Below are positions 30,209-53,628 of a DNA stretch of 64,000 bases, piece after piece. The notes beneath the pieces are model-generated. The model made no database searches, was not told where the DNA came from, and worked only from the letters and a program-made list of their open reading frames with translations. The DNA is from an uncultured Tolumonas sp. (GTDB lineage: Bacteria; Pseudomonadota; Gammaproteobacteria; Enterobacterales; Aeromonadaceae): NCBI RefSeq assembly GCF_963678185.1, contig NZ_OY782757.1:3438001-3502000 (forward strand), given 5' to 3'. How positions within the stretch are numbered: the stretch's first letter is position 1; every line of letters begins with the position of its first letter. Both the position numbers and the translations under genes were made by a program.

Positions 30209-30301
30209 TAACCTTGATTTACGCTTTTTGTTAATAATTTGTAACATTAACAGCTGGTTTGTTTACTGTAATCTTTATGGCGGTAGTCGCTTGGGTTTGT
30301 T

Positions 30302-30316
30302 ATGTTACTGTAACAT
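30302..30316. promoter_or_regulatory. GntR operator at the gntR promoter
   Basis: ATGTTACTGTAACAT is a perfect odd-length palindrome whose half-sites ATGTTAC/GTAACAT equal those of the two operators before gntT. It lies 20 bp before the gntR start and so suits autorepression. Confidence 0.7.
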
Positions 30317-30336
30317 TGTCTTACTGGATAAAGTTG

Positions 30337-31338
30337 ATGAGTCAAAAACCCCGCCGCCCGACGTTACAGGATGTGGCCGATCTTGTGGGTATCACCAAAA
30401 TGACGGTGAGCCGTTATTTAAAAGATCCTGCGTTAGTTTCTGCTGCTGTGCAGGAGAAAATAGCCGTCGCGTTAGATACGCTTGGCTACATTCCCAATCG
30501 GGCGCCGGATCTGCTGTCGAATGCCAAAAGCAAAGCGATCGGCGTCTTACTGCCATCATTGACTAACCAAGTATTTGCCGAAGTGATCCGTGGCATCGAG
30601 TCGGTTACAGAGCCGGCGGGCTATCAGACTATGCTGGCGCACTACGGTTACAGCTCAGAGGTAGAGCAAGAACGTATTGCTTCGCTGCTGTCTTATCATG
30701 TCGATGGTTTGATCTTATCAGAAAGTTATCACACCGAACGCACGTTACGGATGATCCAAACTGCGGGTATTCCGGTCATTGAGGTGATGGATTCCCGTTC
30801 GCCCGTTGTGGAACAAGCGGTTGGTTTTGATAATGCGGCGGCCAGTTATGCCATGACCGAATTGATGCTGCAAAAGGGCTATCGACGAATTGTTTATCTT
30901 GGCGCGCGGATGGACGTGCGAACCCGGCTTAAAATGGAAGGTTATGCTGCCACGATGCAAGCGCATGGGCTTGAGCCATTAACGATGACCACCGATGCTG
31001 CATCGTCATTTTCACTGGGTGCTAAATTGTTATCGGAAGCCCGTATGCGGTACCCCGACATGGATGGGGTGATCTGTACCAACGATGACTTGGCCGTCGG
31101 GGCCATTTTTGAGTGCCAACGACAGAATATTGCAGTGCCTGATGAGATTGGGGTCGCGGGTTTCCATGGTCATGACATTGGTCAGGCAATGGTGCCAAAA
31201 TTGGCCAGCGTGATCACGCCACGCGAAGCGATTGGCCGCGTAGCCGCTGAACAATTGTTAGCGAGGATCAATGGGGTGGCATTAACGGAACCGGTGATTG
31301 ATTTGGGTTTTGAGTTGTCGGCGGGACAGAGTATTTAG
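30337..31338 (+). CDS. gntR: LacI-family gluconate repressor GntR
   Basis: 333 residues. Helix-turn-helix LQDVADLVGITKMTVSRYL at the N-terminus, hinge YIPNRAPDLLSNAKSKAIG, then a periplasmic-binding-like effector domain (FHGHDIGQAM near the C-terminus). It closely follows E. coli GntR, which represses gluconate uptake and catabolism and is released by gluconate. ATG 30337 was chosen on family alignment; upstream GGATAAAG can act as a ribosome site. Operators for it lie before gntR and before gntK/gntT. Confidence 0.94.
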   Translation: MSQKPRRPTLQDVADLVGITKMTVSRYLKDPALVSAAVQEKIAVALDTLGYIPNRAPDLLSNAKSKAIGVLLPSLTNQVFAEVIRGIESVTEPAGYQTMLAHYGYSSEVEQERIASLLSYHVDGLILSESYHTERTLRMIQTAGIPVIEVMDSRSPVVEQAVGFDNAAASYAMTELMLQKGYRRIVYLGARMDVRTRLKMEGYAATMQAHGLEPLTMTTDAASSFSLGAKLLSEARMRYPDMDGVICTNDDLAVGAIFECQRQNIAVPDEIGVAGFHGHDIGQAMVPKLASVITPREAIGRVAAEQLLARINGVALTEPVIDLGFELSAGQSI

Positions 31339-31352
31339 TCTGTTGTTGGCTA

Positions 31353-31458
31353 GAGAGGACTGACAATAAAACGCAGACTCGCTGTAAATCCGTCCATGGA
31401 CGCTCGGGCGGCGGCATCCTTGCCGCCGACGGTCTGCTTATTTATTACCAGTCCTCTC
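31353..31458. repeat. Foldback palindromic element, copy 1
   Basis: A ~106-bp element between convergent gntR and eda. The outer arms GAGAGGACTG (31353-31362) and CAGTCCTCTC (31449-31458) pair perfectly and continue into AATAAA..GCAGAC / GTCTGC..TTTATT. Inside are the palindrome CGTCCATGGACG and the hairpin CGGCGGC-ATCCTT-GCCGCCG (31409-31428). Its core (31371-31442) aligns with copy 2 at 52938-53007. The whole unit can fold into one long stem and may act as a two-way transcript end. Confidence 0.8.
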
Positions 31459-31469
31459 ATTAACGTGTA

Positions 31470-32117
31470 CTATTTTTTCAGGCCGTTGATCAGCGCAACC
31501 GCTTCTGCTGACAGCGTAGTAATTCCCGCCCAATCGCCGGCTTTGACTTTATCCGCCGGGATCATCCAAGAACCACCCACGGTTGCAACGCATTTCAGTG
31601 CCAGATAAGCGGCGACGTTTTTCGGGCCAATACCGCCAGTTGGGCAGAATTTTACCTGTGTTAATGGTGCAGAAATGGCCTGTAACGCTGGTGCTCCACC
31701 ATTGGCTTCCGCTGGGAAGAATTTCAGATGCGTGTAACCCAGATCCAGTGCGGTCATTACTTCTGACGGCGTGCTGACACCGGGGATCAACGGCACGGCA
31801 TTGGCAGCAGCATGTGCCAGCAGTTTGTCGGTAAAGCCCGGAGAGATAATAAACTGCGCACCGGCTGCTACGGCATCATCATATTGTTGTGGGTTCAGAA
31901 TCGTACCAGCACCCACTAAGGCATCAGGCATCGCTTCACGAATGGCGCGAATAGCATCTAAAGCAACGGGTGTACGTAATGTAATTTCAAAAACGGTAAT
32001 CCCGCCTGCAGCCAAGGCTTTGGCCATCGGTACGGCATGCGCCAGATCGTCAATGACCATCACAGGTACAACTGGTGAGGCGGCAAATACAGTAGCAGGA
32101 GAAAGTGTCCAATTCAT
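31470..32117 (-). CDS. eda: KHG/KDPG aldolase Eda
   Basis: 215 residues of the class I aldolase barrel. Key segments: VFEITLRTP (catalytic Glu), GAGTILNP, FKFFPAEAN equivalent LKFFPAEANGG (Schiff-base Lys) and FCPTGGI. It splits 2-keto-3-deoxy-6-phosphogluconate into pyruvate and glyceraldehyde-3-phosphate. ATG 32117 (AAGGA 10 nt upstream) gives the family start MNWTLSPATVF; an ATG at 32135 overlapping the edd stop is also possible. Confidence 0.95.
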   Translation of the reverse strand: MNWTLSPATVFAASPVVPVMVIDDLAHAVPMAKALAAGGITVFEITLRTPVALDAIRAIREAMPDALVGAGTILNPQQYDDAVAAGAQFIISPGFTDKLLAHAAANAVPLIPGVSTPSEVMTALDLGYTHLKFFPAEANGGAPALQAISAPLTQVKFCPTGGIGPKNVAAYLALKCVATVGGSWMIPADKVKAGDWAGITTLSAEAVALINGLKK

Positions 32118-32134
32118 GTTGCTGTTATCCTTCA

Positions 32135-33943
32135 TTAAAAATCGTTGTCGGAAAATAAGATCGAAGCACCTTGTTCCGCGCTGGAAACAATGCGACGGAA
32201 TGAGCCGAACAATTCGCGGCCTAAACCATGGTGTTGCGCGGACAGATTCGATTTAGCTAATGGGCGCTGACGAATATCGTCGAGGACATGTAACGTGCCA
32301 TGAGTAGCATCTAGACGAATGCGATCGCCGTTTTGCAGTTGTGCCAGTGGGCCACCTTTGGCGGCTTCTGGTGTTACATGGATGGCGGCCGGGATCTTGC
32401 CGGAAGCACCGGATAGACGACCATCGGTCACTAATGCAACTTTATGCCCGGCTTTTTGCAGATTACCGAGGATCGGCATCAGCTTGTGCAACTCCGGCAT
32501 GCCATTGGCGGCGGGGCCATTGAAACGCACCACGATGATGGCATCACGATTTAATTCACCGGCTTTATAAGCAGCCTCCACATCATGCTGAGAATCGAAC
32601 ACTGCCGCTTCTGCATCGATATAGTGGTATTGCTCGGCCACTGCACTGACTTTCATGACACAACGGCCTAAATTGCCCGACAGCACTTTCAAGCCACCGG
32701 TTTGATTAAAGACCGCATCGTCATCGGAGAGTACGGCTTTATCCTGACTCACGGTCGTTGGCTGCCATGTCAGTTGCTTGTCGTTAAGCAGCGGATGTTG
32801 CAGATAATCTTCCATGTTGCCCGTCAGTGGTGTGGTATCCATATGCAACAAACCACGCTTCGCTAAACCACGTAACAACAATGGAACACCGCCCGCCTGA
32901 TGGAAAGCATTGATATCAGCTGGGCCATTCGGATAAACCTTGGCCAGCAGTGGCACCGCATCTGACAGATCGCGGAAATCATCCCACGTCAAAATCAGAC
33001 CCGCCGCACGGGCTATTGCCACCATGTGCATGGTGTGATTGGTACTACCACCCGATGCCAAAAGCGCAACCAGACCGTTCACCAGTGATTTTTCATCGAC
33101 CAGTTTATACAGCGGACGATATTGGCTGGAACCGGACACCAGTGTTGGCATTAAAGCCGTTACTTCATTCGTTAATGCCTGACGCAATTCGCTATTAGGC
33201 GCAATAAATGCGGAACCCGGCAACATCAAACCCATAGCTTCGAACACCAGCTGATTGGTGTTAGCCGTGCCATAGAAAGTGCAGGTGCCGGCGCTGTGAT
33301 AAGCCTGATTTTCCATCTGTTGCAGTGCATCACGGCCGAGTTCGCCGGCCGCATATTGCTGACGAATGCGCGTTTTTTCATCATTACTGATGCCGGTGCT
33401 CATCGGTCCGGCGGGCACAAACGCGGTGGGCAGATGACCAAACGAGAGGGCGCCGATCAACTGACCGGGGGCGATCTTGTCGCAGATCCCCAGCAATAAA
33501 GTAGCATCAAAGGCATTGTGGCTGAGCGAAACGGCCGTCGCCTGCGCGATCACGTCACGCGAGAACAGTGACAGATCCATGCCGGCCTGACCTTGCGTGA
33601 CACCATCACACATCGCTGGAACGCCACCGGCGACCTGCGCACTGTGACCGGCGGCCGACAGCACGGCTTTGATCTGCTCCGGATAATGTTCATACGGCTG
33701 ATGCGCACTGAGCAGATCGTTATACGCGGTGACGATGGCGACGTTAACGCGCGTCATATCCAGCAATGTATTTTTTTGCGCATGCGAACATGCGGCAATG
33801 ACATGCGCTAAATTTCCGCAAGCCAGTGTGCCGCGAGGGCGACCGGCTGCAGCCTGTGCTTGCATGCGTGTTACGTAGTCAGCTCGGAGGTCAGCGCTAC
33901 GTTCGCGAATACGCTCTGTTACCTGTTGGATCACTGGATGCAT
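32135..33943 (-). CDS. edd: 6-phosphogluconate dehydratase Edd
   Basis: 602 residues of the IlvD/Edd family. Fe-S cluster Cys residues occur in [27 protein letters not shown] and LLLGICDK. It converts 6-phosphogluconate to 2-keto-3-deoxy-6-phosphogluconate in the Entner-Doudoroff pathway. The ATG at 33943 follows GGAGA and starts one base after the gntK stop codon, so the two are coupled; its stop touches the eda reading frame. Order gntK-edd-eda makes one operon. Confidence 0.96.
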
Positions 33944-50604: not shown

Positions 50605-52905
50605 TTGGCAAAGAAACCGGTAACAAAAAAAGTAACAAGCTATCCATTCTGGCATTGGCGCCGCTGGATAAGTTTTGCCATCAAGCTGAGCTTGGTTGGT
50701 ATTGCCTTCATGGTAATGTTTGGTATCTATCTCGACAGCCTGATCCACAGCAAGTTTGATGGCCAGAAATGGCAGCTTCCGGCTGTGGTATATAGCCGTC
50801 CATTGGAGTTGTTTCCAGGGCAGCGTTTATCGGTGCAGCAGATGTTGCATGAGCTGAAGTTACTGAATTACCGCGAAAGTGCTCGCCCACAGGGGCCGGG
50901 GCAATATGCGGTGAATGGTCAGCGAATGCTGGTGATCCGTCGTTCGTTTGATTTTGCCGATGGCACTGAAAAGATGCGTCCGTTGTTGCTGAGTTTTAGC
51001 GGTCAGCGTCTGGCGAGTATTCAAAGTGCCGATAATCAGCATGAACTGGCCTATGTCCGCATGGATCCGGTCTTACTCGACCGCCTGAGCGGCGATGAGA
51101 TCGAAGATCGAATTTTGCTACGCATTAATCAGGTGCCGCAAACGTTCGTTAACATGCTGTTGCTGGTGGAAGACCGCGATTTTTACAGCCATGGCGGCGT
51201 GTCGATTCTTTCGATTGGCCGTGCGTTTCTGGCTAATTTACGCGCTGGTCATGCGGTACAGGGCGGCAGTACGCTGACCCAGCAGCTGGCGAAAAACTAT
51301 TTCCTCACGCGTGAACGCAGTCTGATGCGTAAAGTGCAGGAAGCCTACATGGCGGTGATCATCGATTACCGTTATGAGAAAAACCAGATCCTCGAAACCT
51401 ACATGAACGAGATCTACCTCGGTCAGAACTATGCACAAGGCGTATATGGTTTTGGTCTGGCGTCATATTTCTATTTTGGTATGCCACTCAATGAGCTGGA
51501 GCCAGATCAAATGGCGTTGCTGGTCACCATGGTGCGTGGCCCCTCTTATTACGACCCGTGGCGTTATCCAGAACGGGCACAGCAGCGTCGCGACATGATT
51601 TTGCGGTTGATGCTGGAAAATCAGCAGTTGTCACCGGAGCAGTTCCAGTTGTATGCCTCGCGGCCTTTAGGGTTACTGGAACGTGGGCAGATGACTTTTG
51701 GTCGCACCCCAGCCTTTATGAATTTGTTGCGTCGTGAATTACGCCAACGATTTGGTGAGGGTTTCCTGAAACAGTCTGGCCTGAAGATTTTTACCAGTCT
51801 GGACCCGGTGGCACAACAAGCTGCGGAAGAGTCGGTGTCCTCGCAACTGGATAGCATTGAAAAACGCCTGAATCGCAAGGAACTACAAGGTGCGATGGTG
51901 GTGACTAACCGCCATTCCGGTGAAGTGTCTGCGTTAGTTGGCGGACGGGATACCAATTATGCCGGCTTAAATCGTGCACTGGATGCGCGCCGTCCGATTG
52001 GTTCTCAGGTTAAACCGGCTGTTTATCTGACTGCACTGGATCAGGGTTATCAGTTGGCAACGCCGTTGAAAGATGAACCGTTGCAACTGCGTAATCAGGG
52101 CGGTAAAACCTGGGCGCCGCAAAACTACGATAAAACCTATCGTGGGAATGTGCCGCTATATGCGGCGATGGCCAATTCACTGAACGTACCGACCGTTCGT
52201 TTAGGTATGGCGGTTGGTATTCCGGCGGTGGCGGAAACGCTGAAAAAACTGGGAGTGACGCAGGATATTCCTCTTTTCCCGTCCCTGTTTTTGGGCATTC
52301 TGGAGTTATCGCCATTTGAGGTTAATCAGTTCTATCTGACATTAGCGACACAAGGCTTATATCAGCCATTAACCGCGATCCGCACCATTCAGGATAGTGA
52401 CGGCAAAGTGTTGTATCAACGTGCCGAGAAAGCCGAGCGCCGTATTGACAGCCAGTCTGCCTATCTGACGTTATTTACCATGACCAAAGTTGCCAGTCAG
52501 GGTACGGCGCGAGTGCTGGCATCGCAGTTCCCCGGTGCTGTGTTGGCGGGTAAAACGGGTACGACGGATAACCTGCGTGACGCCTGGTTTACAGGGATGG
52601 ATAACGACGAGTTGATCACCACCTGGGTCGGTCGGGATGATAACCAGCCCGCTGGTCTAACTGGCGCCAATGGTGCATTGCCATTATTTAGTAATTATAT
52701 GCAACGACGGGGCGTGAATTCGCTGAAATTGCAGGTACCACAAGGTATTTCCATGGTGAACTTCAATGTCGATGGTAAACCGGTGGCCAGTGGTTGTGGC
52801 GGAGCGCTGATGTTACCGGCCCGAACCGATAAACTACCACCAGAAGAAAGTTGCAGCAGTACGCCGGTGGATTGGATTAAAAATATGTTCTCTAGTGGAG
52901 AGTAA
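50605..52905 (+). CDS. mrcB: Penicillin-binding protein 1B (bifunctional class A PBP)
   Basis: 766 residues: short cytoplasmic tail, one membrane helix (~22-45), UB2H domain (~60-140) that binds LpoB, GT51 glycosyltransferase (catalytic Glu189 in VEDRDFYSHGG; GGSTLTQQLAKN) and transpeptidase (Ser467-x-x-Lys470 in IGSQVKP; SLN in ANSLNVPT; Lys650-Thr-Gly). It polymerises and cross-links peptidoglycan. Start is TTG, with AAGGA about 10 nt upstream; no ATG fits the family start. Its C-terminal tail is shorter than in E. coli but ends with the matching WIKNMF motif. Confidence 0.96.
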   Translation: MAKKPVTKKVTSYPFWHWRRWISFAIKLSLVGIAFMVMFGIYLDSLIHSKFDGQKWQLPAVVYSRPLELFPGQRLSVQQMLHELKLLNYRESARPQGPGQYAVNGQRMLVIRRSFDFADGTEKMRPLLLSFSGQRLASIQSADNQHELAYVRMDPVLLDRLSGDEIEDRILLRINQVPQTFVNMLLLVEDRDFYSHGGVSILSIGRAFLANLRAGHAVQGGSTLTQQLAKNYFLTRERSLMRKVQEAYMAVIIDYRYEKNQILETYMNEIYLGQNYAQGVYGFGLASYFYFGMPLNELEPDQMALLVTMVRGPSYYDPWRYPERAQQRRDMILRLMLENQQLSPEQFQLYASRPLGLLERGQMTFGRTPAFMNLLRRELRQRFGEGFLKQSGLKIFTSLDPVAQQAAEESVSSQLDSIEKRLNRKELQGAMVVTNRHSGEVSALVGGRDTNYAGLNRALDARRPIGSQVKPAVYLTALDQGYQLATPLKDEPLQLRNQGGKTWAPQNYDKTYRGNVPLYAAMANSLNVPTVRLGMAVGIPAVAETLKKLGVTQDIPLFPSLFLGILELSPFEVNQFYLTLATQGLYQPLTAIRTIQDSDGKVLYQRAEKAERRIDSQSAYLTLFTMTKVASQGTARVLASQFPGAVLAGKTGTTDNLRDAWFTGMDNDELITTWVGRDDNQPAGLTGANGALPLFSNYMQRRGVNSLKLQVPQGISMVNFNVDGKPVASGCGGALMLPARTDKLPPEESCSSTPVDWIKNMFSSGE

Positions 52906-52919
52906 GTCGCTGAAATATT

Positions 52920-53022
52920 GCGCAGGTCATCAACTCAACGCTGACATGCCGTAAATCCATCCATGGAGGCTTGGGCGCCGCATCCTTGCGGCGCACAGTC
53001 GACTTATGAGTTGGTGACCCGC
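52920..53022. repeat. Foldback palindromic element, copy 2
   Basis: A ~103-bp element between convergent mrcB and yajL. Outer arms GTCATCAACTCA (52926-52937) and TGAGTTGGTGAC (53007-53018) pair over 12 bp with one G-T. Inside are TCCATGGA and the hairpin GCGCCGC-ATCCTT-GCGGCGC (52975-52994). The core 52938-53007 aligns with copy 1 (31371-31442). A second small palindrome (CCTCTCAGCTGAGGGG, 53025-53040) follows. Confidence 0.8.
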
Positions 53023-53053: not shown

Positions 53054-53620
53054 TTAAGCCAACATATCCTTACGCACCTGCGCTGCTATTTCTTTGCCTT
53101 GTAACTCCGCAACAATTGCCAACGCAAAATCAATACTGGTGGCCGGGCCTTGGCTGGTGATCAGCTTATTGGGCTTATCCACCACGACGCGATCTTGGCG
53201 GAGTTGCTTGGCGGGTAACTGACTTTGCGTACCGGGGTAACCCGTGACCAAAGCATCGCCAATCAGATCATGATGAGCTAAAACGAATGCTGGCGTGGCG
53301 CAAATTGCTGCGCGCCATAATTCGTTGGCGCGTTGTTTTTTCAGCAGCTCAATGACCATCGGGTTATCGCGCAGATATTCAGCACCCGGCAAACCGCCGG
53401 GTAATACGATCACATCGAACATCTCATGTGCTACTTCTTCCAGCAAATGATCGGCTACCAGATGTACACCACGAGAGGCGACGACTTCGCGCTGTTTGTT
53501 GGGGTTGATCGATGCGACCGTGACTTTGATTCCGCCGCGTACCAGCGTATCAATGCTGGTTACCGCTTCAATCTCTTCACAACCAGGGGCAATAATAACC
53601 AGTGCTCTTTTGCTCATCAT
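53054..53620 (-). CDS. yajL: DJ-1/PfpI family protein YajL
   Basis: 188 residues with the DJ-1 fold: ALVIIAPGCEEIEAV (Glu of the elbow), VLPGGLPGAEYLRDN and the reactive Cys in AAICATPAFVLAHH. It matches E. coli YajL, reported to act as chaperone/deglycase in oxidative stress, though the deglycase claim is debated. AAGG is 7 nt before ATG 53620; the ATG at 53626 sits too close to it. It follows panE by 8 bp, the same order as E. coli. Confidence 0.92.
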   Translation of the reverse strand: MMSKRALVIIAPGCEEIEAVTSIDTLVRGGIKVTVASINPNKQREVVASRGVHLVADHLLEEVAHEMFDVIVLPGGLPGAEYLRDNPMVIELLKKQRANELWRAAICATPAFVLAHHDLIGDALVTGYPGTQSQLPAKQLRQDRVVVDKPNKLITSQGPATSIDFALAIVAELQGKEIAAQVRKDMLA

Positions 53621-53628
53621 GTTCATCC

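Follow-up and report, generated by a model that had tools for sequence, protein, structure and literature searches.

The window analyzed here is a 64,000-nucleotide stretch of the genome of an uncultured Tolumonas sp. (NCBI RefSeq assembly GCF_963678185.1, contig NZ_OY782757.1, positions 3,438,001 to 3,502,000). It holds two copies of an intergenic foldback element, both between convergent genes, as a sequence-only reading of this DNA had noted. Copy 1 (106 bp) lies between gntR and eda, and copy 2 (about 95 bp) lies between the gene for penicillin-binding protein 1B (PBP1B) and a DJ-1 family gene (Table 1). The position of copy 1, its 10-bp outer arms, and its 7-bp hairpin with an ATCCTT loop had all been read correctly: GAGAGGACTG (31353-31362) pairs perfectly with CAGTCCTCTC (31449-31458) over 10 bp. 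Copy 1 folds at -51.2 kcal/mol on the plus strand (z = -6.85) and at -55.0 kcal/mol on the minus strand (z = -7.79), and on neither strand did any of 200 shuffles match it. The 22-nt core pattern matches exactly at 31384 and with one mismatch at 52951, against an expectation of no match in the window. The arms of copy 2 are GGTCATCAACTC (52925-52936) and GAGTTGGTGACC (53008-53019), and its plus strand folds slightly better than its minus strand (-46.1 versus -44.5).

Table 1. Features of the two element copies and their neighboring genes (window coordinates).
Feature	Position	Strand	Basis or remark
gntR, gluconate operon repressor, left of copy 1	30259-31338	+	Start codon position as called
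Copy 1, entire foldback element	31353-31458	- (strand that appears to be kept foldable)	Arms, fold energy; covariance-model match 31370-31441 (-), 79.1 bits, copy among the 56 rows used to build the model
Copy 1, P1 closing stem, left arm	31353-31378	.	Outer 10 bp (31353-31362) perfect
Copy 1, hairpin P2	31381-31403	-	Bulge TTTAC at 31384-31388; model match, column counts
Copy 1, hairpin P3	31405-31431	-	7-bp hairpin of the sequence-only reading at 31409-31428; model match, column counts
Copy 1, P1 closing stem, right arm	31432-31458	.	Arms, fold, model match
eda, KDPG aldolase, right of copy 1	31470-32135	-	Its mRNA would carry the GGA-loop sense of copy 1
PBP1B gene, left of copy 2	50605-52905	+	
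Copy 2, entire foldback element	52925-53019	-	22-nt core, arms; model match 52937-53007 (-), 78.0 bits, copy among the 56 rows used to build the model
Copy 2, P2 tip	52957-52966	-	Loop 52959-52964, C-ATGGAT-G on the minus strand
Copy 2, P3 core	52975-52994	-	GCGCCGC-ATCCTT-GCGGCGC; loop 52982-52987, C-AAGGAT-G on the minus strand
DJ-1 family gene, right of copy 2	53054-53626	-	Its mRNA would carry the GGA-loop sense of copy 2

The outer arms pair in both copies and look unrelated between them, as the sequence-only reading had it. However, the arms seem by eye to be the element's own, because some copies within this genome share diverged arms; TTTTATTGTC is common to an arm of copy 1 and an arm of another copy in the same genome (L252, by eye). 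That arms are preexisting host palindromes is thus not supported as a general rule. There is one contrary case: in a viral contig (L339, 6150-6360), a near-identical YPAL (Yersinia palindromic sequence) sits at a duplicated hairpin dyad, with flanking 18-bp direct repeats that are the dyad itself (by eye).

On the complement of the strand that had been described, both hairpin loops read CANGGANG; strand and loops had been overlooked. We call this complement, the minus strand for both window copies, the GGA strand, and the other the forward strand. The GGA strand is predicted to fold as a three-way junction with two hairpins, in the order P1, P3, one A, P2 with a UUUAC bulge, two nucleotides, and P1. 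P3 is the 7-bp hairpin already described, extended, and the UUUAC bulge of P2 is conserved among copies. In copy 1, the P3 loop (31416-31421) is C-AAGGAT-G on the minus strand (ATCCTT on the plus strand) and the P2 loop (31392-31397) is C-ATGGAC-G on the minus strand; TCCATGGA occupies 31393-31400.

Selection on the folded structure, which the sequence-only reading had proposed, is supported because covariation is strong across 56 diverse copies and arm changes are compensated at the copy 2 site. Pairing among the 56 copies holds in 90.3% of cells, and cells with both sides changed number 303 against 94.3 in shuffles (SD 7.4). The covariation score is 0.628, compared with 0.175 for shuffles and at most 0.131 for slid structures. 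Two further counts are less striking: 17 pairs changed on both sides versus 15.8 (reached by 91 of 500 shuffles), and 52 further pair types versus 48.2 (reached by 24 of 500). Note that invariance in part of P2 and in the P3 loop is partly by construction, because the selection pattern fixes the former and a filter demands a clear P3 loop; no such constraint applied to P1 or to the P3 stem. Within P3, every pair but the closing C-G varies. At the copy 2 site, six copies from different genomes of the genus show compensated arm changes (C-G to T-A; A-T, T-A, and C-G at one column), along with some single mismatches. One of the seven copy 1 rows (L160) was unmatched in this comparison.

From the 56 pattern-picked copies, we built a covariance model, R1, and searched the genome and its relatives, both of which the sequence-only reading had suggested. 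Its counts cover the candidates scored by the search, and totals are limited accordingly: 17 matches in the window's own genome, matches in 21 of 37 genomes (own genome included), up to 89 matches in one relative, and, in a sample of the gammaproteobacterial class, matches in 79 of 369 genomes compared with 16 of 369 having the exact pattern. The four genomes of one genus (g4) had none. An exact 20-mer was found in at least 120 stretches of named genome contigs, including Stenotrophomonas, Xanthomonas, Halomonas, Marinobacter, Alteromonas, and Tolumonas. A few of these stretches fall in other groups; two of those few lie inside genes and are likely chance matches. The window copies matched neither annotated phages and plasmids nor E. 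coli genomes. Of 5426 E. coli genomes, 5 do carry RU-2-like copies, four of the five on plasmids, and two such loci score 56.5 bits with R1. Among viral contigs, the exact 20-mer was absent, a degenerate core was present in eight, and the full element was present in one of those eight. Three contigs labeled Bacillus subtilis SK7B5 (L105, L113, and L146) hold Stenotrophomonas-like elements, probably through contamination.

We are close to certain, from comparing sequences, that the element is dispersed, that its structure is under selection, and that it is related to YPAL, also known as RU-2 (Rfam RF02770, Ysr224). The alternative offered earlier, a mobile repeat family, also holds: the element shares its core with YPAL/RU-2 (by-eye comparison), and there are many dispersed copies. 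The published Yersinia sequence holds the core on its complement, and the printed strand of the RU-2 sequence in the cited portion of PMC2759123 includes both hairpins, their loops being AAGGAT and ATGGAT. Like the window element, YPAL/RU-2 is intergenic, multicopy, and reported to be mobile. It differs in its arms and in its length of 167 to 168 bp. Its described range, as far as the cited accounts extend, is Yersinia, Erwinia carotovora, and a few E. coli matches, whereas the relative in the window is found through the Gammaproteobacteria. The Ysr224 model gave 38.1 and 35.4 bits for the two window copies on the forward strand at a relaxed threshold (below the gathering score of 70) and 72.4 bits for an E. 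coli RU-2-like copy. Ysr224 is modeled on the strand opposite to the GGA strand, and RNA of this family has been seen on the modeled strand, since expression is reported in Yersinia. In the portions of the reports cited, it is temperature-responsive in Y. pseudotuberculosis (PMC9029176), and several copies in Y. ruckeri have differing expression profiles (PMC12112432). YPAL appears in the parts of the published accounts cited here without a settled function or a demonstrated mobilizer.

A second Rfam family, TwoAYGGAY (RF01731), shares with the element a closing stem, two C-AYGGAY-G hairpins, and 1-nt and 2-nt joints. The loop base that is Y in TwoAYGGAY is N at the second loop position of the element, and the second hairpin of the element carries the UUUAC bulge, unlike TwoAYGGAY. 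Against the minus strand of copy 1, this model scored 20.5 bits (E of 0.4 to 0.6), with an end-to-end alignment and both loops in register. Scores were higher at two other loci, L129 (38.6 bits) and L284 (37.5 bits), both below the gathering score of 43. An Rfam search of 20 loci at E up to 0.05 returned TwoAYGGAY only in L284 and Ysr224 in two loci, and no family was returned for 15 loci at the gathering threshold. TwoAYGGAY has been proposed, by motif matching, to bind CsrA (PMC4333381, cited portion).

The pattern of mismatches in the outer arms indicates which strand is kept foldable. On the forward strand, A.C outnumbers G.T by 97.2 to 27.2 (weighted), and, of 113 arm clusters, 54 favor A.C, 7 favor G.T, and 52 are ties. 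These clusters come from 157 copies and positions more than 14 nt from the core; 23 of 180 copies were dropped for want of a clear second hairpin. This trimmed count replaces an untrimmed first one (A.C 338 versus G.T 253). An A.C on the forward strand is a G.U on its complement, and the complement is therefore the strand kept foldable. A second set of 70 arm clusters, drawn from model matches in genomes that partly overlap the first set, gave G.T 59.1 versus A.C 18.8 on the GGA strand (31 versus 5 clusters, 34 ties), and the GGA strand folds better in 57 of these 70 clusters. No gene context reverses the wobble excess, which is weakest in the -- context (11 versus 5). In the hp2 stem alone, the bias is not significant (15 versus 8 clusters, 90 ties, P = 0.21). 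Across the set, although not from copy 2 alone, it is well supported by these arm comparisons that the GGA strand is the one kept foldable.

Placement between genes is also oriented. With the forward strand as +, codon-scored gene calls gave both neighbors for 152 of 173 copies, and the contexts were ++ 56, +- 55, -- 26, and -+ 15, with convergent genes making up over a third. These calls replaced a first set (n = 160: +- 31, ++ 28, -- 16, -+ 10, one neighbor 15, inside an open reading frame 60). The left gene points toward the element in 111 cases versus 41, and the right gene in 81 versus 71. A second set, made up of 89 of 99 distinct model matches, showed the same left-gene lean (60 versus 29); in 53 of these, a gene upstream with respect to the GGA strand runs in the same sense as that strand. 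For the 152 copies, 98 of the nearest genes (73 + 25) run antisense to the GGA strand and 54 share its strand. This antisense arrangement, found in about two-thirds of copies, means either that transcripts from facing genes or antisense transcripts are important or that the hairpins work for the spread of the element. Inverted pairs (37 paired copies) occur as -- 11, ++ 10, +- 8, and -+ 4, with 4 inside a called gene.

Individual sites differ among genomes of the genus. At the copy 2 site, six of nine genomes carry the element, and the others have a degraded remnant (G002), other sequence (G005), or a terminator-like hairpin (G008). An element or pair lies at gntR/eda in 9 of 10 genomes with a gntR match; gntR has other neighbors in G008. 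In several genomes, by eye, both facing genes have a copy or remnant of their own. The window's own genome has five transaldolase/transketolase paralogue pairs (L254 to L258), with an element in each gap; gene families were checked in one pair, L256. In L254, the element is inverted and has other arms, and the paralogue flanks are 84 to 90% identical.

A hexaloop CANGGANG closed by C-G, as in CsrA/RsmA-binding RNA, is found at both hairpin tips (C-A-N-G-G-A-N-G on the GGA strand) in 102 model matches, with single exceptions. These matches (E up to 1e-4, 82 loci) are nonindependent and come from a model of pattern-picked copies; R1 leans toward its own consensus, yet it admitted matches down to 32 bits. 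The closing C and G are present in 102 of 102 at both tips; for the two tips, the counts are 101 and 102 for A, 102 and 102 for the first G, 101 and 101 for the second G, and 101 and 102 for the next A. Every base occurs at each N position (P3: G41 A29 T28 C1 and T88 C7 G4 A2; P2: T73 A12 G10 C7 and T81 G10 C7 A4). The two GGAs are 23 nt apart in 61, 24 nt in 11, and 22 nt in 1 of 73 representatives, which were selected for a clear loop. Because the pattern behind the compensated-change set fixed most loop bases, we take loop constancy from the printed copies at the window sites in genus genomes. Among these intact copies, own copies counted (six at the copy 2 site and nine at gntR/eda), loops vary only at N positions (by eye).

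Both the loops and their spacing agree with what is published for CsrA and its RsmA-type relatives. The Rsm motif is CANGGANG, and the RsmE consensus is A/UCANGGANGU/A (PMC6849547, in part). For CsrA, the cited portion of PMC7652899 gives the SELEX consensus RUACARGGAUGU, mostly in hexaloops with AC/GU pairing, which the loops of the element fit except for the base at R. One CsrA dimer bridges sites separated by 10 to 63 nt, best by more than 18 (same source, in part), a range that includes the 22- to 24-nt spacing of the element; the SELEX data there also suggest that CsrA may disfavor very stable stems. The CsrB/CsrC and RsmX/Y/Z sponges similarly present GGA in hairpin loops, with CAGGA(U/A/C)G in CsrB (same source, in part). 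In contrast to these sponges, the element has two sites, no promoter of its own that we could see, and many dispersed copies. A -10-like motif is not enriched beside the GGA strand (25 of 84 versus 23 of 84), and we rejected a small RNA with its own promoter on this basis. No paper combining YPAL and CsrA was found in one collection of open-license papers.

The csrA gene is present in the window's genome and in 313 of the 369 sampled genomes. It occurs in 74 of 79 element-bearing genomes versus 239 of 290 others (Fisher P = 0.013), a co-occurrence that is confounded by small symbionts and by reduced and incomplete genomes. Five genomes have the element without csrA, four of them less than 90% complete, and 51 have neither. 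Among good genomes only, the numbers with and without csrA are 64 and 1 for element bearers versus 216 and 33 for the others (P = 0.006). CsrB-like loci were found in 12 of 20 genomes searched. Two lie in the window's genome (G000:C1:2323923-2324278 and 2316719-2316953); their scores, 69.3 and 28 bits, fall short of the gathering score of 71.

The comparisons across copies establish, at the level of sequence, the family, its strand bias, its covariation, the two invariant loops, and their spacing. Because both loops and their spacing match the published consensus, we propose, at what we judge to be even odds, that the element is a putative dispersed, bivalent CsrA/RsmA docking module. In this view, the shorter relative of YPAL/RU-2, dispersed between genes, has as its working form the complement of the strand originally described. 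On that strand, a long closing stem, free to change in sequence, is predicted to hold two hairpins that each present a closed hexaloop C-ANGGAN-G, about 23 nt apart. The GGA strand would be transcribed as the 3' part of the mRNA of a facing gene (for example, eda) or in antisense or read-through RNA, and one CsrA/RsmA dimer could then grip both loops of that RNA. Such a docking site might alter the fate of the RNA or draw CsrA away, and mobility would spread sites around the genome. If the GGA strand is a two-site CsrA module, then repeats seen as genomic clutter become regulator docking sites in many genera, and some of these sites adjoin central carbon genes here (eda; transaldolase/transketolase). 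More tentatively, mobile foldback repeats may have scattered up to dozens of bivalent CsrA/RsmA sites through gammaproteobacterial genomes and so created a layer of posttranscriptional control that can transpose. YPAL/RU-2, Ysr224, and TwoAYGGAY would then be one superfamily of CsrA-binding mobile RNAs, and the annotation of Ysr224 would follow the opposite strand.

The main rival, which we consider rather unlikely, is that the two hairpins are a recognition signal for an enzyme that moves the element in trans in single-stranded form, as DNA or RNA. Pairing and loops would be kept because only foldable copies move, and insertion would favor terminators or stop-codon ends, in one direction oftener. 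The many dispersed copies are as expected under this explanation, as is their placement, with its left-gene and antisense lean. The wobble bias seen in every gene context would also fit a signal for the element's own spread. Direct repeats of at least 8 bp flank 9 of 97 copies versus 2.1 expected, although two of the nine are tandem copies at one locus (L042). The YPAL between 18-bp repeats of a hairpin dyad in the viral contig points the same way, as do the YPAL target duplications of 3 to 26 bp, at or near dyads, in the cited portion of PMC2229807. However, no mobilizer was found, and among the neighbor clusters listed, no transposase family is shared near copies. The element resembles REP/REPIN sequences in being a short intergenic palindrome and in forming inverted pairs, but it is without a link to Y1 transposase genes. 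REPs are marked by GTAG/CGTC tags (PMC3733652, in part). A REP/RAYT system is not supported: Y1 transposase was not found in four copy-bearing genomes (G000, G007, G011, and G017, with 17, 19, 44, and 47 matches), and none of 22 Y1 transposase loci (about 3 kb each) holds the element. Reverse transcriptase, considered as the mobilizer, was not found in five genomes (G000, G011, G015, G017, and G021). Two points weigh against a purely mobile signal: compensated changes accumulated at a site common to six genomes, and the identity of the loops with the CsrA consensus would go unexplained. A clean empty site for copy 1 or copy 2 was not seen among the genus genomes compared.

We doubt still more that the element is a two-way transcript end, as the sequence-only reading had suggested, with the stem protecting or ending the mRNAs of facing genes in the manner of REPs or terminators. 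That proposal draws on the convergent context of over a third of copies, on the terminator-like hairpin that replaces the element at the copy 2 site in G008, and on the copy or remnant for each facing gene at gntR/eda. Against it, neither window copy shows, by eye, the GC stem followed by a T-run of an intrinsic terminator, there being no T-run beside the arms. Wobble is tolerated on one strand only, and generic end protection would need no invariant CANGGANG loops. The element also lies between transaldolase and transketolase genes that run in the same direction, and inverted pairs are mostly between same-direction genes. Quasi-palindrome correction during replication, which could yield compensated changes without selection on the fold, is already disfavored and very improbable: template switching does give long, near-perfect arms that change together, but arm copying is not expected to favor G.U over A.C on one strand or to preserve two loops, the UUUAC bulge, and their spacing.

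Several copies outside the window are unusual in arrangement. At L042, two copies 178 bp apart (3724 and 3902) have nearly the same arms and different cores (TCCATGGA versus an ACATGT type). One genome, G308, has 30 pattern matches, many of them nearly identical and with TATACC...GGTATA ends. These look like capture by a TA-targeting transposon, which we take to be IS630-like. In several G308 copies (L182, L186, L189, and others), the right arm, downstream of the core, encloses a second repeat, which has hairpins such as CGCCATGGATGGCG and TTTTGCAGGAGCAAAA (by eye); GGA again occurs in its hairpin loops, in the sense opposite to the GGA strand of the core. In two genomes of the genus, a Molybdenum-cofactor riboswitch (88 to 92 bits; L259, 1201-1335, and L262, 1205-1339) lies near an inverted pair of elements.
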